This document shows, piece after piece, positions 1 to 26,041 of a DNA stretch of 37,960 bases (positions are counted from its first letter, which is position 1; each line of letters starts with the position of its first letter). The stretch is from a virus, in the IMG/VR virus record IMGVR_UViG_3300020202_000164, positions 1 to 37,960 of that record; one strand, given 5' to 3'. The notes beneath the pieces were generated by a model that ran no database searches, was not told the origin of the DNA, and was given only the letters and a program-made list of their open reading frames with translations. Made by a program: the position numbers and the translations under genes.

Positions 1-2365
1 TACCAATCCCTGCGCTACTCGCTGCGCTGAACTGAGCCGCAGAGGTTCCATCTGGTGAACCGATGAACGAAACAGTCCCCGAGGTTATATTGGACTGTAT
101 AAGGTATGAGCGTTGCGTACCTGTGTCCAGCTTCCCAATAAGGCTTTGAGTGGTGGCCGTGAGGCTGTCTGGAGCAGCGTCGTAAATCATTTCTATGTCA
201 CCTGTTATGTCAAGAGCGGACTTGTCATCAGTCATAACATAGTTGCCGTTGACACCAGGCAAATCCACATAGGTGTCCTGTTGTACAAGGGCATTACCCT
301 TATTAACCCAGACATTGCCGTAAGCGTCCGTCCAATATGTTGCCAGTCCTGCCTTAGTTCCAGCGGTTGAGGATACGACAGATAATAGTGCTCCTGAGCG
401 TCCAGACAACAGCAGTCCATCTTTACCCACCGCCGTTGAACCTATACCAGAGGGTAGTGTTAGTGTTCTGGCTACGGTGGTATCAACCTCTAAGCCTGAA
501 AACGTGTTTGAGCCTGTAATGGTCAGACCACCGGCAGAGGCGGCTACGTTATATCTCAGTATTCCGTAAGTTTTGCCACCACCAGCGAATGTTCGTGTAT
601 TCGCACTCGCATTGCTCAGCACGAATGTCGCTTCGTCAGCATCGACGGTAGCAGTCGATGTGAGACTCACGAAGGTCTGCGTCGCCGTCGTCGTGAACGT
701 GGACACGCTGGTGCCGAACAAGAATGTCGTTCCGGCGCCTCCGACGAGCTGACCTCCAAACGTCAGCGAGCTTGAGCCGAAGTTAACAGTTGCTCCGCTT
801 GATACCGTAACCGTAGCCGCCCAGGAAGCCGTGTAATTTGCGGTGTTAAATGTACCAGATGCAACCAAAAAGGTATTGGTTGTACTAGTAAAGTCGCTAC
901 CAAGCGAGTATGACCCTGTAGTTGAGTTAATCTGCATTGCTACGCCGATGGCTACACCATTAGTCGTAATCGTGTGCGACCCTCGACCAATAAATACCCA
1001 CAAACTACCGGAAGCGACGGTTACACCCATTCCCGAGGCAAGCGTTAAGCTACCTGTCATATTTGATGTTGTGTTCACGGCGCTCGCCATACGTAAGGTC
1101 GTGCCCGTAGCTCCAGTCCAGTCGATATTTCTACCTAGACGCGGCATGTCTGTCGTAACAGTTTGTGTTGCGCTAAAGGCAGAAGCGATAACTACGTCAT
1201 CCTGACTGAGGGGCACTCGGCTTGTCCACTTCGTCACATCAGACCAGTTACCACCACTCGTACCTTGCCATGTTTGTGTTGTGCTAGGCGTGAAGGTAAT
1301 CCCAGAGTTCCCCGTGTTATCTCCCGAATTGCCCGTAATCGCAGATAAATTCCAGCTTGCCGCCCCCGCTCCTGTGATGTCTCGCCAGTCCGAATTTGAC
1401 GTGGACACTGCCGCTGCGGTGATTGTTCGACTTGTCCCAACTGTAAATGAGGCTACTAATAATCGGTTATTCGTACTATTTCCATTAGCTGTGAATGTAC
1501 CCGTAACCGTTACGTCTCCACCTAGTGTTAGGCTGTCTGTCTTAACGGCTGTTCCGGTGCGGGACAGGTTCGTCACAGTTGTGGGCGCTGCGATTGTGAT
1601 GAGGGAACCACCGGCTCCCGTAATGTTTAGCGTCCCGTAGACGACACCTGAACCCGCCGCCGAACTGCCGTGATTAAATATGGCGCTCGAGCCAGTCAGA
1701 TTGATTGTGCTCGATGCGCCAGACATGGTGAATCCCGTAGCGGTTTGCACCGTCCAGGCCGTGTTGGCACTAGTCATCGTCAGAGACGACGTTCCAAGGG
1801 TCAATGAACGTGTGGTGCTGTTTGACGACGAAAACAGCCCAGAAGTTACAGTCTTACTGTTCGTATCAAAATGTCCTGCGGCAAGAGTAATCGTTGCTGA
1901 ACCTCCGGTAGCCGTAAGGTTGTCTTGCAGTGTCCACTTACCGCCTGCGGTAAAGAAGGTTAGGCCGCCCATAGTCTTGCCAGCCGTAGTAATTGGCCAG
2001 CCAGCTCCACCGTTGTCCGTAGTAGCATTGAAGCGAATAGCACTTAATGAGCCAGCATTGTTATAGGTCATCCCAGAGGACAGGGTAAGCGCTCCGCCTG
2101 AAGCGTCTCCTATCGCCAGTCCTGGGGAAGCGTTACTATTGGTAAAAGTGCCCGTAAAACCTGTGAAGTTCAAGGAACGGCAGACCGCTTGTAGGGCGGT
2201 GGCGCTGGTCGTGATGGTTCCGGTGCCACTGTTAGCGTCAAAGAATACGTCGTCGGCAGCAGTAGGAACTGAAGAACCGCCAGCACCTCCAGAAGTAGCA
2301 GCCCACTTAGTTCCGGCAGTAGTGTCCCATGTGGCTGTGCCGCCAACCCAGAATCTATTCGCCAT
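1..2365 (-). CDS. Tail fibre / adhesin-like virion protein, N-terminal 788 residues (runs off left edge)
   Basis: The reading frame is open from ATG at 2365 to the window edge, so the C-terminus is missing. It begins MANRFWVGGTATWD, an opening I associate with beta-rich phage fibre proteins. The body is very rich in Gly, Ser, Thr, Asn and Ala, with short hydrophobic strands at regular intervals (for example TLGGDVTVTGTFTANG), which suggests a right-handed beta-helix or stacked beta repeats. The last visible 100 residues contain ALDITGDIEMIYDA, then SLIGK, then TSGTVSFIGSPDGTS, which looks like the start of a LamG/concanavalin-type binding domain. A likely role is host-surface recognition. It is the last gene of the leftward late run, 7 bases after the preceding gene. 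The fibre assignment is inferred from composition and position; the exact fold is not certain. Confidence 0.75.
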   Translation of the reverse strand, partial: MANRFWVGGTATWDTTAGTKWAATSGGAGGSSVPTAADDVFFDANSGTGTITTSATALQAVCRSLNFTGFTGTFTNSNASPGLAIGDASGGALTLSSGMTYNNAGSLSAIRFNATTDNGGAGWPITTAGKTMGGLTFFTAGGKWTLQDNLTATGGSATITLAAGHFDTNSKTVTSGLFSSSNSTTRSLTLGTSSLTMTSANTAWTVQTATGFTMSGASSTINLTGSSAIFNHGSSAAGSGVVYGTLNITGAGGSLITIAAPTTVTNLSRTGTAVKTDSLTLGGDVTVTGTFTANGNSTNNRLLVASFTVGTSRTITAAAVSTSNSDWRDITGAGAASWNLSAITGNSGDNTGNSGITFTPSTTQTWQGTSGGNWSDVTKWTSRVPLSQDDVVIASAFSATQTVTTDMPRLGRNIDWTGATGTTLRMASAVNTTSNMTGSLTLASGMGVTVASGSLWVFIGRGSHTITTNGVAIGVAMQINSTTGSYSLGSDFTSTTNTFLVASGTFNTANYTASWAATVTVSSGATVNFGSSSLTFGGQLVGGAGTTFLFGTSVSTFTTTATQTFVSLTSTATVDADEATFVLSNASANTRTFAGGGKTYGILRYNVAASAGGLTITGSNTFSGLEVDTTVARTLTLPSGIGSTAVGKDGLLLSGRSGALLSVVSSTAGTKAGLATYWTDAYGNVWVNKGNALVQQDTYVDLPGVNGNYVMTDDKSALDITGDIEMIYDAAPDSLTATTQSLIGKLDTGTQRSYLIQSNITSGTVSFIGSPDGTSAAQFSAASSAGIG

Positions 2366-2372
2366 CTGTTAC

Positions 2373-3377
2373 CTACTTGTATGCTAAGTTTACTGTGATT
2401 TCGTTGGCGGCCACTGCTCCTGTATCGGAGTCGGCTACGCCAGTCGTTAGCGCCAAAGCTATGCCTATTGTAAATTCTATGCCTGGAAGCCCTATTGGAA
2501 TGTTCGTACCTGCACCGGCCGCATTACCGGGAATGAGAAAAGTGTGAACTGGAACATCTGTACCCACTACAGGGCTAGACGCCTTATTGTAGATTTTCAA
2601 ATAACGAGCCGAAGCGTTGATATTACCTGCAGATATGTTATATAGCGTACCTGCTGAAGCCTTGACGCTGGTTGCATTAGTCGTAGCGGCTGAGACTAAC
2701 TTAAAGGGGGTAGCACCACCGGTTGCCATTGCTGAGATAGTGCCTACATTCGTACCGTCAGGATTGGTTACCCTTAGCGTGTTCGGGAACTGGGGCTTCA
2801 TGCGAGTAGCAGTCTCGATTGACTCTAGTTGCTCGGAGATTCGTTTCCACGCATCTAATAATTCGGAGTTGTCGGTCTCAGGTATCTCAACTTTGGGGAT
2901 TTTCTTAATCGCTGAGTTAAAGGCGTCGGGAATATCTTTCTTTAGGATGCGCTCGATACCTCTCAGGTCAACGTCAGGGGGACTCACGTTGACCTGGGGA
3001 GCATCCACGTTCACTACTGGTTTTACGTCCTTGGCCTTCGCAGCAGCCCCTACAGCCTTCTGCAGCTTCTCAACCGCCTCAACTACAGGTGTGGCGTAAT
3101 CAGGCATTTCAGGGGCTTTCTGTTGCCTAAACTCTAAGATAGCCTCCTGCATATTCTTTAGAATCTTAACGAAGTCATCACCCGTAACATGGTCAATAAT
3201 AAGGGTTTTGCGGCCAGGGTCCTTGTTCTGGTCGTCCATGATACCCAGCATCTCCTGGGCCATAGCTGCAATGTCTTCTAAGGTTTGGAGTTGCTTAACG
3301 TCCTGCTGCCACTTCTCCAGTTTTTCACGTTGTTCCTCTGTCAGTTTGCTTTCGTCAAGTCTTGGTTTTTTGTCCAT
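2373..3377 (-). CDS. Putative virion accessory protein with coiled-coil N-terminus and beta-rich C-terminal domain
   Basis: This 334-residue protein has a charged helical N-terminal half (many E, K and Q in residues 1-110) and a Pro/Val-rich linker (VNVDAPQVNVSPPDVDLRGI). After another helical stretch there is a beta domain over roughly the last 125 residues (VSAATTNATSVKASAGTLYN, then ARYLKIYNKAS). That last domain resembles small structural domains seen in many uncharacterised phage virion proteins. I chose the ATG at 3377 because it overlaps the upstream stop as TAATG, the standard coupling in this genome. An in-frame TTG lies four codons upstream. Its place between head genes and a fibre suggests a head-decoration or fibre-attachment role, which is inference. 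Confidence 0.65.
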   Translation of the reverse strand: MDKKPRLDESKLTEEQREKLEKWQQDVKQLQTLEDIAAMAQEMLGIMDDQNKDPGRKTLIIDHVTGDDFVKILKNMQEAILEFRQQKAPEMPDYATPVVEAVEKLQKAVGAAAKAKDVKPVVNVDAPQVNVSPPDVDLRGIERILKKDIPDAFNSAIKKIPKVEIPETDNSELLDAWKRISEQLESIETATRMKPQFPNTLRVTNPDGTNVGTISAMATGGATPFKLVSAATTNATSVKASAGTLYNISAGNINASARYLKIYNKASSPVVGTDVPVHTFLIPGNAAGAGTNIPIGLPGIEFTIGIALALTTGVADSDTGAVAANEITVNLAYK

Positions 3378-14070: not shown

Positions 14071-14112
14071 TAGCACATTGTTATTGACATGGTTATAGCA
14101 GTGTGCTACAAT
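14071..14112 (+). promoter_or_regulatory. Strong early sigma70 promoter with flanking TAGCACA / TGTGCTA inverted repeat
   Basis: TTGACA (14084-14089), a 17-base spacer and TACAAT (14107-14112) form a near-consensus promoter firing rightward. An inverted repeat, TAGCACA at 14071-14077 and TGTGCTA at 14102-14108, brackets the -35 and overlaps the -10. This is an ideal place for a repressor, or a divergent pair of extended -10 elements. Start point expected near 14119. Confidence 0.75.
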
Positions 14113-14118
14113 GGAGTT

Positions 14119-14286
14119 ACAGTCGAATGATACGCAATCAACGACTAGCACAATAACAATCTAAAGAGCGGTGACAGATAGACAAGCCTGAGTCACCAAT
14201 AACGCTTACAAGGTGTAACTCCGCTCTAACGATTGCATTTAACAATTCAGTTACTAGCGTGATAGTCATTAATAAGGAGTACTATC
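14119..14286 (+). promoter_or_regulatory. Structured 5' leader of the 45-residue gene
   Basis: Three nested perfect helices can be drawn: GCAATC/GATTGC (14134-14139, 14231-14236), AGAGCGG/CCGCTCT (14165-14171, 14221-14227) and GGTGAC/GTCACC (14170-14175, 14192-14197). The last two share two G residues. The leader ends in a strong ribosome binding site (AAGGAG). It may be a cis-regulator or part of the larger RNA that follows. No U-tract is seen, so it is not a simple attenuator. Confidence 0.5.
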
Positions 14287-14424
14287 ATGACAATAGCGGT
14301 CTTTAATACAGAGGTAGAAGTGCTGGAATATCTAGCCAACTTACTCTGTCAAGAAGTAGGCCTATCTTTTAAACAGCTTGTAGAAGTACAGGCAGAACTT
14401 GACAAGGTAGGATTCTACCGCTAG
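14287..14424 (+). CDS. Small hypothetical early protein (45 aa)
   Basis: ATG at 14287 follows a strong ribosome binding site (AAGGAGTACTATC). The product is amphipathic and acidic, beginning MTIAVFNTEVEVLEYLANLL and continuing with CQEVGLSFKQLVEVQAEL. It is the first gene after the strongest promoter in the window, so it is probably made early and abundantly. The stop codon lies within the 5' arm of the hairpin that opens the downstream non-coding region. Function unknown. Confidence 0.6.
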   Translation: MTIAVFNTEVEVLEYLANLLCQEVGLSFKQLVEVQAELDKVGFYR

Positions 14425-14897
14425 CCAGGCATTTATTGCTGGCTACCACGCTAGTAAATAATTGACTGGTCTAACTGGACAATTAAGCCTGATGTAGAGA
14501 TTGGCGGCCGTCTAACGGAGCTAAGGAACGCTCTACTCTTAATTGTTCAACTGGCCGTATAACTTTAACCTTGGCTGCTATCGCTGGAAACAGTAATGCA
14601 GCGGCCAAAAAGCTAACAATATATGCAGGTGTTAGCAGCTCATACGGTCAAGAGCTAGTAGGAATATGCGCTAAAGCCGACGCCATTATATCGGGTCATC
14701 ACCTGCTAGCTACCAGTTATGACAATAAGTAAGCTATGCGGCGAATAGCTCTAAGTCTTGCGGCTCTCTTGTCGGGCGTTAATAGCCACTGAAAAAGTGT
14801 GGTCAGCCTAAACAGAGGTTTGATAGCTTGTTGTCATTACTGGCCAGTTAATAAATCTGTACTGCTTATGGCACTTGGCAGAAACTAGAGGTTTGAA
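14425..14897 (+). ncRNA. Candidate large structured non-coding RNA region (about 470 nt)
   Basis: No gene with a ribosome binding site is present on either strand, yet perfect or near-perfect helices are dense. These include TAGCCAG/CTGGCTA (14422, 14439), an 11-bp long-range helix GGACAATTAAG with 14538-14548, and TTGGCTGC with 14598-14608 (3-base bulge). Others are GGCCGTAT with 14642-14649, GCTAACA/TGTTAGC (14612, 14630), and AGCTAT/ATAGCT (14732, 14745). The loop GCAGG at 14625 can pair with CCTGC at 14702, a pseudoknot. Size, density and phage setting recall the GOLLD and ROOL classes of ornate phage RNAs, but I see no specific match. No terminator is seen before the gene at 14898. Helices were found by eye. 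Confidence 0.5.
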
Positions 14898-15737: not shown

Positions 15738-16004
15738 ATGGCAAGTGTGGCGGAAACATACAAGGCAGTAGAAAAGTTAGACGTAGGAACTTCAGTTCCC
15801 AGGCAAGTAAAGATTAAAACACCGTCTGAAACGTACGTTAAGGTACTTAAGAGCGTGATTGTGGTCTTAGCAGTGGTTTTAGGCATCTTTATGTGGCTAG
15901 CGCTCAGAAACGCTCGTCCGTTGGTTATAGACTCAATTGGTACTGATGATGGTGGAAATACAGTTTACGAAATAAGAATGGATAAAGGGGTAAATCAGTG
16001 GTAA
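15738..16004 (+). CDS. Single-pass membrane protein (88 aa)
   Basis: ATG at 15738 follows an AGAGGGT ribosome binding site. Residues 1-35 are polar, a transmembrane helix follows at about 38-57 (VLKSVIVVLAVVLGIFMWLA), and a short acidic/basic tail ends the protein. Its last codons overlap the GTG start of the next gene, which encodes an exported protein, so the two are probably made together. Function unknown; an envelope role is likely. Confidence 0.65.
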   Translation: MASVAETYKAVEKLDVGTSVPRQVKIKTPSETYVKVLKSVIVVLAVVLGIFMWLALRNARPLVIDSIGTDDGGNTVYEIRMDKGVNQW

Positions 16005-16289: not shown

Positions 16290-16323
16290 ATTGAATTGAG
16301 CGGCGTTGGTCGCTCTTTTCAAT
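16290..16323 (+). terminator. Rho-independent terminator of the first early cluster
   Basis: GAGCG/CGCTC (16298-16302, 16311-16315) with outer TTGAA/TTCAA pairs is followed by TTTT within the outer arm. It lies 17 bases after the stop at 16273. Confidence 0.7.
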
Positions 16324-16324
16324 T

Positions 16325-16351
16325 AAAAGAGAAACCCCCGTTTCCGGGGGC
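16325..16351 (-). terminator. Minus-strand terminator with GNRA-type loop
   Basis: On the minus strand GCCCCCG and CGGGGGT form a perfect GC stem around a GAAA tetraloop, followed by TTTCTCTTTT. It would end a short leftward RNA begun at about 16381. Confidence 0.8.
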
Positions 16352-16381
16352 TGACCGTGTTCTCATTGCACTGGCGTGCTT
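16325..16381 (-). ncRNA. Candidate 57-nt small RNA, complementary to the 5' end of the divergent RNA
   Basis: A TTGACA-N17-TAATGT promoter (16388-16416) would start RNA near 16381. A small GCAC-GCCA-GTGC hairpin follows, then AGAACACGGTCA, then the GNRA-loop terminator. The 12-mer AGAACACGGTCA is the exact complement of bases 16421-16432 in the rightward RNA. No open frame fits. The promoter, size and terminator support a small RNA; an antisense role is inference. Confidence 0.5.
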
Positions 16382-16408
16382 GACTTCACATTATCATTGT
16401 GCTTAACT
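16380..16408 (+). promoter_or_regulatory. Rightward promoter of the 16.4-kb RNA
   Basis: TTGACT, a 17-base spacer and TTAACT, with TTGTGC directly before the -10, as in the other promoters of this genome. Start point near 16415. Confidence 0.6.
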
Positions 16409-16416
16409 CATGTCAA
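16388..16416 (-). promoter_or_regulatory. Leftward promoter overlapping the rightward one
   Basis: On the minus strand TTGACA, a 17-base spacer and TAATGT. The two promoters occupy the same 37 bases face to face, with the -35 of each next to the -10 of the other. Polymerase occupancy of one would block the other. Confidence 0.55.
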
Positions 16417-16662
16417 CACTTGACCGTGTTCTTTGCGGGATACCACCCATTAGGTAGAGGATAGCAAAGTAAAATAAGCCTCGGTAATGGGCTGACCGAC
16501 ACCATACGGATACCTCACGACGGAGTAAGTAAGGCGTAAAACCCTTACTCCAGAGAAGGAAACGGCTGGGAGAGGGAAGGTAACCAGGAGCCAAAAGGCT
16601 ACTGAACAAAATACGAACAAACTACAATAAAGAAAAGAGCCTCGTAATTGAGACTCTTTTTT
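16415..16662 (+). ncRNA. Candidate structured non-coding RNA (about 248 nt)
   Basis: The unit has its own promoter and terminator and no coding frame with a ribosome binding site. Helices include CCCATTA/TAATGGG (16446-16452, 16485-16491) with inner GAGG/CCTC, and GGAGTAAG/CTTACTCC (16522-16529, 16544-16551). AGCC-AAAA-GGCT (16589-16600) and the terminal hairpin complete it. A minus-strand frame of 68 codons crosses it but has no ribosome binding site and is an unlikely gene. It does not resemble tmRNA, RNase P or 6S RNA as far as I can tell. Role unknown; the complementary small RNA suggests regulated activity. Confidence 0.55.
16633..16662. terminator. Bidirectional terminator
   Basis: AAAAGAG-c-CTC and GAG-a-CTCTTTT form a long stem with a 6-base loop. 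The flanks read TTTTTT on the plus strand and CTCTTTTCTTT on the minus strand, so it can end the rightward RNA and the leftward mRNA from 16801. Confidence 0.75.
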
Positions 16663-16702: not shown

Positions 16703-16801
16703 TTACTGCTGGTCTTGTCCAGCGTTGTCTCCGCCATCGTCCTGATTAGGTTGCTGATTAGGAACTGGGCGATTGCCCCCGTCTTGTCCGTCGTTAGCCA
16801 T
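16703..16801 (-). CDS. Tiny Asp/Gln/Asn/Gly-rich peptide (32 aa)
   Basis: ATG 16801 has a strong GGAGG ribosome binding site at good distance. The product, MANDGQDGGNRPVPNQQPNQ followed by DDGGDNAGQDQQ, has no hydrophobic residue to speak of and must be disordered. It is the last gene before the bidirectional terminator and follows the transglycosylase-like gene by 94 bases. The good ribosome binding site argues for translation; a function is not apparent. Confidence 0.5.
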   Translation of the reverse strand: MANDGQDGGNRPVPNQQPNQDDGGDNAGQDQQ

Positions 16802-16895: not shown

Positions 16896-17498
16896 CTAGT
16901 ACCAGTTATTCCGATTGTGAAAACCAACAGCGTTAGCCCATGACCCGTAACGTGACATGACATAAGAGTTCATCCATTTAACCTGACAAGCTCCATCACC
17001 TAGCGCACAGCCTGACTTGCCACATGGAAGTTCTTGAGCTACGCCACAAGCCCCCGAAGATTTATTCCGGGCAAATGGATTACAGCCTGATTCTCGGCGA
17101 ATTAGTTCGTTAGCGTTTGCCACGTCACCAATCCCAGCTCCACGTATCCAATCAGCGCATGAGCCACTAGGAGCCGCTGTAGGAGGCTTTGGCGCTTCAG
17201 CAGCGTAAACCTTCCTCTCGGACTCTTTAAGCAGCCTACGAGCTTCTAATTGCTTCTGAAGCTCTTGTTCCCGTTGCTTAAGTTTTTCGATTTCCTGTTG
17301 CTTCTCAGCTTCAGTCTTCGTCTTGTTTTCCTCTAATGTCCGATAGTCCTGGTCAAGCTTCTCAAGTTCGGAGTGGACGTTCCGAAGCTTGATTTCCTGA
17401 AGCTTGAGTTGGTTCTTGTCTGTGTGAACTTGATGAACTGCGTTTAAGGTGAAGCTAAAAATCAAAGTTGTTAGCAACACCATGAATATGCGTTTCAT
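16896..17498 (-). CDS. Exported coiled-coil protein with C-terminal SLT/lysozyme-like domain
   Basis: This 200-residue protein has a signal peptide (residues 1-20, IFMVLLTTLIFSFTLNA). A long charged coiled coil spans about 30-95, followed by a Pro/Ala linker. The C-terminal domain contains LIRRESGCNPFARN (Glu136 as candidate catalytic acid), SGACGVAQELPCGKSGC and the end SRYGSWANAVGFHNRNNWY. This matches the pattern of transglycosylase-like domains fused to coiled coils in secreted proteins. Six cysteines (114, 139, 151, 159, 164, 171) suggest disulfides. It would cut or remodel peptidoglycan outside the cell. It is not in the lysis cassette and lies next to early genes, so it may serve entry, exclusion or wall remodelling rather than lysis. 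Confidence 0.75.
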   Translation of the reverse strand: MKRIFMVLLTTLIFSFTLNAVHQVHTDKNQLKLQEIKLRNVHSELEKLDQDYRTLEENKTKTEAEKQQEIEKLKQREQELQKQLEARRLLKESERKVYAAEAPKPPTAAPSGSCADWIRGAGIGDVANANELIRRESGCNPFARNKSSGACGVAQELPCGKSGCALGDGACQVKWMNSYVMSRYGSWANAVGFHNRNNWY

Positions 17499-17837: not shown

Positions 17838-17865
17838 AAAAAGTGCGAGAGGGTTTCTCTCACAC
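17838..17865 (-). terminator. Leader hairpin / attenuator directly at the start of transcription
   Basis: On the minus strand GTGTGAGAG and CTCTCGCAC (9 pairs, one G-U) with a 5-base loop are followed by TTTTT. It lies directly after the start point predicted from the promoter at 17873-17901, so it could stop most transcripts early or protect the 5' end. Confidence 0.6.
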
Positions 17866-17872
17866 TCAACAC

Positions 17873-17901
17873 AGTCTAGCACGTTGCTTATGCTTTGTCA
17901 A
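17873..17901 (-). promoter_or_regulatory. Leftward early promoter
   Basis: On the minus strand TTGACA, a 17-base spacer ending GTGC and TAGACT. It belongs to the TGTGCTA promoter family. It is divergent from the promoter at 17936, and TAGCACG/TGTGCTA words (17878-17884, 17907-17913) bracket its -35. Confidence 0.7.
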
Positions 17902-24446: not shown

Positions 24447-25124
24447 CTATCCTCCCTTCTTAATTGTTCGCACTACTGGTACACAAGCTTCGCCTTGCTC
24501 GTGTAACAGCCGGTCCATATCCTCGAAACTAATGAAGCACTCACCATTAACGCCCCAGTCCTGCCCCCATGAATTGTGAAGTTTGAAGTACTTCTCTTTG
24601 ACGTTAACTGAGTGACAGAGGATAGCGTGTCCACCGGCTAGACGTCCGGTCGGTTTAAGGAAGCCTTTGGTGTCTGGCTGGAACATTCCCTCGTACCAGT
24701 TAAGACCGAGGACGGCGGGACCTGCGTAGCCTACCGCTAGAATGAGGTCATCTAATCCGAAAGCCCAACGGTATTCTGTCATGTAACCAATGTTACTAAC
24801 TACCTTAGCTCCAGCCAGAACGGACGTCCCTTCGTAAGCTTCTCCGGCCCATTCATCTATCTTCTGAGCTGAGGTGTAGATTCCTCTGGCGTAAGAGTTA
24901 TCTACGGCGATTATCTTAGGTCTGGCATTTAAGTCGTGCGCCCATGCGAATCCCACACAAGCACCTTCTCGGCCTTGGTCTAACCACGCCTTACACGACC
25001 ACGTATAGGAACGTTGTTTCTTAGGGACCAGCGCTCGAATAGGAAAGTTCCTGCTTCTCTCATCGAACTGAGGAATCCTGTCGAGCCTTTTATCTGTCGT
25101 CCTGAATCCGCCCCTTAGCTTCAT
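24447..25124 (-). CDS. Papain-fold (C1) cysteine protease
   Basis: This 225-residue protein has the papain signature: DQGREGACVGFAWAH (Cys56, with Gln50 as oxyanion residue), AGGHAILCHSV (His166) and LHNSWGQDWGVNGECF (Asn184). The order and spacing fit peptidase family C1. There is no signal peptide or long propeptide. It sits between the amidase and small basic genes, overlapping the amidase stop (ATGA). It could cut peptide cross-links or surface proteins during lysis, or process phage proteins. A papain-type enzyme in a lysis cassette is unusual, as CHAP or NlpC enzymes are the norm. Confidence 0.85.
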   Translation of the reverse strand: MKLRGGFRTTDKRLDRIPQFDERSRNFPIRALVPKKQRSYTWSCKAWLDQGREGACVGFAWAHDLNARPKIIAVDNSYARGIYTSAQKIDEWAGEAYEGTSVLAGAKVVSNIGYMTEYRWAFGLDDLILAVGYAGPAVLGLNWYEGMFQPDTKGFLKPTGRLAGGHAILCHSVNVKEKYFKLHNSWGQDWGVNGECFISFEDMDRLLHEQGEACVPVVRTIKKGG

Positions 25125-26041
25125 ATCTTGATTCCTAAGAAGTTTAGAATCGCTTGTAAGGCTCTCTTAATCCAAGAAATGTCAGGCTCTACTGGTGGAG
25201 GGGGGTTGTCTGGTTGTGGCGGTTCTGGTTCCGGCGGTTTAGGTGGCTCAGGTGGAGTAGGAGTAGGCGCTACGAATGGGTCTAGGTCTTTCACGTTAAA
25301 CCCATTAGTAATCTTCTTCGTGTACGAGTACTCGGTCAGGTAGTAGGTAGCACCCAAAGTCTCATTCACACACTGACCGTATGTTGTGACTTGGTGTCCT
25401 TTAGGGAACTCAGCCTTCGATGTCATACTCCACTTGGTGTTGTTGAAGTCCCATAAATGAGTCGGTTGTTTGTTGGTCACGAATACTTTATTGGAAGTAA
25501 ACTTAGTCCAGCTAAGTGTGGCTTGGGCCGGAGGAGTAGGCGCGGGAGCTGGAACCGGATTGTAACCACCAGCCTTCCACTTGTTAGCTTCAGCTCGCAT
25601 GCGGTTCAAGTCCAATGACCCAGGGCAGGCGGTCGCAAACCAATGTTTGTGGGGGTACAGAGCTAGTCCCTTGGGGTTATACCGCCCCTCTAGCTCTTTA
25701 ATCAGCCAGCCGACTTTCTTATATCCCTCAGCTCCTAGTGTAGGCTGACACTCAATCGAGATAGTGGTTGGATTACCTGACTGTGAAGTCCAAGCTACGT
25801 TGTCCGGGTGTACCATCAACGTAATCTTGTTGTCCGAGACCACATAGTTAACGCTCTTCTTACCCAGCTTACCTTGGGAGAGGAAATAGTTGACGATAGC
25901 GTCATGCTTACTGGCAGGCTCTCCTCCGCCCCACCAGTGAATGGTAATTCCACTCCTTGAATAACGTCCGTAATAAGCCTGAGCTTGAGCAGGCGTATGC
26001 CAACTACCGGCGGCAGCTAGCTTAGTTTCGATTGTATACAT
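25121..26041 (-). CDS. Endolysin: N-acetylmuramoyl-L-alanine amidase (Amidase_2)
   Basis: The N-terminal domain (about 25-145) has ITIHWWG (His35, zinc ligand), a strand with Glu97 (TISIECQP), and YPHKHWFATACPG (His131 and Cys139, the remaining ligands). This is the Amidase_2/PGRP set, which cuts the bond between muramic acid and L-alanine. A Pro/Ala linker leads to a second domain (about 175-255, SWTKFTSNKVFVTNKQPTHL, then WSMTSKAEFPKGHQVTTYGQ) that probably binds the wall, as SH3-like domains do. A Pro/Glu-rich spacer and an amphipathic C-terminal helix (SWIKRALQAILNFLGIKI) follow. No signal peptide, so a holin is needed. ATG at 26041 has a good AAGGAGG ribosome binding site. Confidence 0.9.
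   Translation of the reverse strand: MYTIETKLAAAGSWHTPAQAQAYYGRYSRSGITIHWWGGGEPASKHDAIVNYFLSQGKLGKKSVNYVVSDNKITLMVHPDNVAWTSQSGNPTTISIECQPTLGAEGYKKVGWLIKELEGRYNPKGLALYPHKHWFATACPGSLDLNRMRAEANKWKAGGYNPVPAPAPTPPAQATLSWTKFTSNKVFVTNKQPTHLWDFNNTKWSMTSKAEFPKGHQVTTYGQCVNETLGATYYLTEYSYTKKITNGFNVKDLDPFVAPTPTPPEPPKPPEPEPPQPDNPPPPVEPDISWIKRALQAILNFLGIKI

Follow-up and report, generated by a model that had tools for sequence, protein, structure and literature searches.

A candidate antisense cassette of uncultured phages in which a small RNA matches the 5' end of a large non-coding RNA

The DNA analysed here, hereafter the window, is a 37,960-base IMG/VR virus record, and all contigs compared with it are metagenomic fragments. 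The best isolate relative of its terminase family reaches at most about 34% identity. Two predicted transcripts, a small leftward RNA and a large rightward RNA, are placed at the locus described below, which holds the following features.

16313-16331, both strands: inverted repeat CTCTTTT-CAATT-AAAAGAG, followed by AAA and a GC hairpin, with no R' copy
16325-16381, - strand: predicted small antisense RNA of about 57 nt, from P_L to its terminator
16333-16352, - strand: terminator of the small RNA, a hairpin with a GAAA tetraloop
16352-16363, - strand: R, the pairing segment AGAACACGGTCA in the small RNA, directly 5' of the terminator stem
16380-16408, + strand: rightward promoter P_R, TTGACT-17-TTAACT, with TGTGC ahead of the -10
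16388-16416, - strand: leftward promoter P_L, TTGACA (16416-16411)-17-TAATGT
16415-16662, + strand: putative large non-coding RNA of about 248 nt, from promoter and terminator positions and predicted fold
16415-16430, + strand: 5'-terminal hairpin AACAC-UUGACC-GUGUU, overlapping rcR'; its counterpart in relatives is ACUAUUUG-rcR'-CAAAUAG
16421-16432, + strand: rcR' UGACCGUGUUCU, complementary to R, within the 5' end of the large RNA
16420-16435/16607-16620 (P1), 16446-16491 (P2), 16492-16579 (P3) and 16585-16604 (P4), + strand: predicted stems of the large RNA
16431-16436/16464-16469, + strand: possible pseudoknot of the large RNA, from the predicted fold
16633-16660, both strands: terminator shared by the large RNA and the lysis-type operon that faces it, able to terminate in both directions

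The two interleaved promoters were found by sequence and pattern check where the original prediction had put them; a generic promoter scan of the window lists neither P_R nor P_L. The predicted start of the large RNA at 16415 lies 7 nt past the -10 of P_R, and the distance to the 5' hairpin in related contigs is 7-8 nt. The -10 of P_L (TAATGT) is weaker, the equivalent place in relatives holding TTGACA-16/18-TANNNT. The leftward GAAA-loop terminator and the bidirectional terminator of the large RNA are likewise present as predicted, and the positions of promoter and terminator support the proposed 57-nt leftward unit, whose fold has a z-score of -3.63.

Promoters of the TTGA...TGTGCT type number only three in the window (14084, 16380 and 17936), those at 14084 and 17936 facing into operons. 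The class TTGACW-N12-TGTGCT, recurrent at operon heads in this phage, is represented at 14084, 16380 and 17936 (+) and at 17901 (-), where the leftward sequence is ACGTGCTAGACT, and it also occurs in contig L003. At 17843-17901 (-), the promoter is followed within about 10 nt by a strong, terminator-like hairpin, GTGTGAGAGA-AAC-CCTCTCGCAC-TTTTT, which precedes lysis-type genes and looks like an attenuator. A 32-codon ORF with a good ribosome site (MANDGQDGGNRPVPNQQPNQDDGGDNAGQDQQ; 16703-16801, -) is the last gene ahead of the bidirectional terminator. The most stable fold found in the window (14241-14456, +; z -5.15; 10-bp closing stem UACUAGCGUG/CACGCUAGUA) is possibly another structured RNA; the strong promoter at 14084 is upstream of it, and it overlaps a 45-aa ORF (14287-14424) with a good ribosome site. 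Further along, at 24447-26041 (-), a papain-like cysteine protease gene adjoins an N-acetylmuramoyl-alanine amidase gene.

The 12-mer TGACCGTGTTCT stands at 16352 and 16421; the small RNA carries it in antisense, and the large RNA has it in sense near its start. This 12-base sense/antisense match, as originally noticed, is the window's only exact direct repeat of at least 12 nt with copies no more than 120 nt apart, and R has one extra one-mismatch site in the window beyond the two copies. Among 1000 shuffled pairs of small and large RNA, none had a 12-nt match and four equalled the duplex energy. A 2-nt bulge extends the match to TTGC, giving 16 bp.

No credible ORF was found in any + strand frame of 16415-16662, in keeping with the earlier view that the large RNA codes for no protein. 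As for its description as a 248-nt structured RNA, the unit, the terminator and the lack of an ORF hold, and the word "structured" is weakly supported by folding energy, because the z-score is modest (-2.75 with the terminator, -1.9 without) and some 8% of the segments in the window reach the same stability. The strand at 16415-16430 has an alternative fold, P1 with 16607-16620.

A divergent small RNA complementary to the 5' region of a longer RNA is the layout of type I toxin-antitoxin loci, and the locus could be read as a tisB/istR-like pair in which the large RNA is a toxin mRNA. The divergent small RNA of about 60 nt and the short complementarity agree with this (PMC4147584), but none of the + frames of the large RNA offers a small hydrophobic toxin ORF with a plausible size, start codon and ribosome site, which already contradicts such a reading, and the family A RNAs of relatives, described below, are structured RNAs rather than mRNAs. 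A toxin-antitoxin pair is hence scarcely credible here.

Neither the small nor the large RNA has a sequence homologue in Rfam, phages, plasmids or IMG/VR, and no Rfam family reaches its gathering threshold in the window or in relatives. The DNA of the RNA locus shows similarity to phage and plasmid records at chance level only, close DNA relatives of it are absent from all collections searched, and protein-style scans of the locus against viral and genome contigs gave no match. The neighbouring genes used as queries (15738-16004 and 16896-17498) returned no relatives. In most terminase relatives the early region is missing, and they have no DNA match to the window RNA, and the genome contigs searched with the terminase gave distant relatives only, of mixed taxa and at most 30% identity. 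Weak likenesses of the window RNA to L046, L050, L082 and L092 (E 0.02-1), none of which survives a search of all loci, and Rfam matches obtained with permissive thresholds, among them one to RNAI (E 2.9) on the small RNA of a relative, were judged to be chance. With no homologue of the large RNA, a single sequence underlies the structure and strand proposed for it.

Relatives of the locus were instead located through the downstream RecB-like nuclease gene, in the same gene neighbourhood, and by two pattern scans. In most of them the corresponding gap contains a TTGACA promoter that reads leftward and, a few tens of bases further, a GC-rich terminator; about 20 related contigs from uncultured viruses have an equivalent small-RNA unit. 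Some records are identical (L002/L046, L003/L049, L009/L104, L028/L066, L050/L058 and L053/L057) or near-duplicates (L092/L103). On the opposite strand, a second promoter and a hairpin lie beyond the small-RNA terminator, so the small RNA and the rightward RNA overlap; the rightward transcript starts ACTATTTG-loop-CAAATAG, continues with AAAA and then runs through the small-RNA terminator hairpin backwards. The loop of this 5' hairpin repeats the segment R of the small RNA, and R is wholly different between phages (TATATCAAACGAAAT in L046, TGTACACGAAGTA in L027, TAGTGTTACAAA in L055 and TGATGTTTGAGC in L009). There are exactly two copies of R per contig in the contigs tested, one just inside each transcription start and about 45-70 bp apart; the R' copy lies in the loop of a conserved hairpin stem and R does not. 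The match is only 7 nt in L003 and L028, and L050 has an 11-nt inverted copy instead of a direct one. The original prediction had staked itself on the repeats and promoters being conserved in close relatives: the architecture is kept, but the exact sequences, the interleaving of the promoters and the large RNA are not.

The longest complementary run between small RNA and target averages 10.5 nt (7-15) for a phage's own target and 4.5 nt for other phages' targets, a difference reached in 0 of 20,000 permutations across 13 cassettes, the window included. Target segments were set by predicted transcript starts; the repeats had already been seen, and an independent confirmation set was therefore needed. 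A scan of 2.9 million viral contigs with the hairpin stem alone, leaving the loop unspecified, gave 52 places, among which both promoters were correctly placed in seven new contigs, a near-duplicate and two known contigs. Every one of these correctly promotered hits repeats its loop downstream, over 7-14 nt, whereas almost all hits lacking both promoters are without a repeat, with low-complexity or short matches at most. For the seven new contigs, none of the other possible assignments, out of 5,040 in all, does as well as the true pairing (exact permutation, 1/5,040). Furthermore, only the direct orientation of the repeat is enriched and inverted copies are not, which fits pairing because RNA complementarity needs a direct repeat. 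Three of the four substitutions within the match, as read by eye, keep a G-U pair (L047, L083 and one of two in L065), which is suggestive only as support for RNA pairing. The cassette, the co-variation of R and R', their orientation and their position at both transcript starts can thus be read directly from the DNA.

The device recurs in about 20 other uncultured viruses and, as the matching sequence changes from one to the next, the match very probably works as a switch specific to each virus. The two terminators, the pair of promoter-like sequences and the 12-nt repeat could also have come together as chance neighbours, considering that about 0.3 close 12-nt repeats are expected (an estimate) in a window of this size and that P_L is weak. 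However, the matched repeats in some 20 other contigs, the independent set and the small-RNA fold (z -3.63) speak against chance, which the relatives contradict unless the window itself is an unrelated coincidence; it is very unlikely. The main rival is that R and R' are operators of a repressor that co-evolves with both promoters, the RNA complementarity being a by-product. Exactly two copies, one inside each start, about 45-70 bp apart and differing between phages, are what operators would look like. Yet R is not palindromic, the two copies have opposite orientations with respect to the promoters they belong to, and enrichment is confined to the direct arrangement; moreover, the relatives place R' but not R in a conserved hairpin loop, substitutions are mostly wobble-compatible, and no repressor gene was noticed beside the cassette. 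Paired operators therefore appear an unlikely explanation.

In 13 aligned contigs the rightward RNA runs on into a conserved, covarying and pseudoknotted RNA, here called family A, for which Rfam holds no such family. It comprises a long stem that contains an internal A-C mismatch, an inner stem ending in a CUCUG-type loop and a 3' hairpin, and the loop pairs with the 3' end to form the pseudoknot. Covariation is 0.409 against 0.187 for shuffled data on a MAFFT alignment, and 0.610 against 0.228 on a model-fitted alignment, which leans towards structure; the pseudoknot arms match better within than between phages (0 of 20,000). A fragment of family A lies in L009 at 2954-3015 (-), about 1 kb from a cassette (3967 downwards, -) that precedes an HNH-type gene, named by eye from its translation, rather than family A. 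In the 143-kb contig L056, at about 1150-1250 (-), the 5' module alone is present (GGTGTTGTACAACCACC...CAACAAAGATGTAA), closed by GGCAACA/TGTTGCC, and may be a separable RNA domain. Arrays of about 20 tRNA genes each adjoin family A on the same strand in L027 (2867-5798) and L028 (5783-8222). The phage RNAs GOLLD and ROOL, which are 500-800 nt long, are linked with tRNA arrays, a link that family A shares in these two contigs. The RNAs described here resemble GOLLD and ROOL in being non-coding structured phage RNAs (PMC12286853), but they are about 150-250 nt long, have no Rfam match and are tied to an antisense cassette.

The window shares part of this architecture: a TTGACA-type promoter pointing leftward whose terminator follows after 35-65 nt, and an R with a matching 12-nt copy in the hairpin that opens the rightward transcript. 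It departs from the relatives in that P_R lies between the small and large RNAs, the transcripts are divergent and no repeat copy is found beyond the small-RNA terminator. The inverted repeat at 16313-16331 looks like an old position of the 5' hairpin (compare CTATTTG-R'-CAAATAG-AAAA in relatives). The large RNA gives no match to the family A covariance models R1 and R2, one of which was widened, the best window hits (12.6-12.7 bits) lying elsewhere. As such, the window is read from its sequence as a rearranged member of the cassette class whose large RNA is not detectably family A. With P_R and the hairpin on the other side of the small-RNA gene, only the 12-nt match in trans is left; if the window does descend from such a cassette, the match survived the rearrangement but the overlap did not, which speaks for pairing in trans as the functional part.

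Several known systems offer partial parallels. In ColE1, as here, a short antisense RNA recognises a hairpin of a longer non-coding RNA, and the loop sequences of RNAI/RNAII differ between elements and define compatibility (PMC9458437). Unlike this pair, RNAI is fully complementary to and overlaps RNAII in cis, and RNAII primes replication. Divergent short RNAs complementary to the 5' region of a longer RNA are known from IstR-1/tisB, shoB/ohsC, zor/orz and dinQ/agrB, IstR-1 having 21 complementary nucleotides (PMC4147584), but the longer RNA here encodes no peptide. Similarly, the P1/P7 c4 and P22 sar RNAs are short, phage-coded antisense RNAs, and the specificity of c4 differs between related phages (PMC12197685); they target antirepressor (ant) mRNA, whereas the target here is non-coding. 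The original reading of the locus as an antisense pair is strongly backed by the turnover of matched R and R' in relatives, while its analogies with toxin and replication systems find no support: the large RNA has no toxin ORF, and no replication gene or primer feature was found.

The locus is probably a phage antisense cassette whose small RNA is a phage-specific regulator of the large non-coding RNA through pairing of R. We infer that both RNAs are produced and meet in vivo, the small RNA pairing through R (12 nt, or 16 bp with the bulge) with the 5' hairpin of the large RNA. Since this would unpair P1 at its 5' strand and undo the possible pseudoknot in the predicted fold, the pairing most likely lowers the amount of the large RNA or blocks its folding; it would prevent folding or mark the large RNA for RNase III. 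With an R that is not shared between phages, each of them would control only its own kind, like the loops of plasmid RNAI/RNAII. Against this explanation, the -10 of P_L in the window is weak, the matched sites by the two promoters could be operators, an extra copy of R is not obviously needed where both RNAs fully overlap, and L003, L028 and L050 have short matches or no direct copy. The presumed direction of regulation, repression, and the role of the large RNA as its target could also be reversed: the small RNA may protect or refold the large RNA, or be an effector for which the large RNA is a sponge or decoy. Identical pairing evidence would be expected, and a non-coding large RNA offers no translation for the small RNA to block. 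However, antisense RNAs acting at a 5' hairpin usually repress (RNAI/RNAII, Sok and IstR-1), and a non-repressive role seems rather unlikely.

It is possible, if short of probable, that these loci form an undescribed class of regulatory phage cassette, with a large non-coding effector RNA under the control of an antisense RNA that diverges fast and gives a phage-specific RNA immunity or compatibility group; the effector would differ, many phages having family A, the window an RNA unrelated to it and one contig an HNH gene. If true, a group of uncultured phages would possess a self-specific control circuit made of RNA only, whose main controlled product is a new covarying RNA family. Turnover of a pairing segment with its match preserved is rarely this clean, and the cassette would offer a testable case for the evolution of antisense specificity, and hence of phage compatibility or superinfection control.
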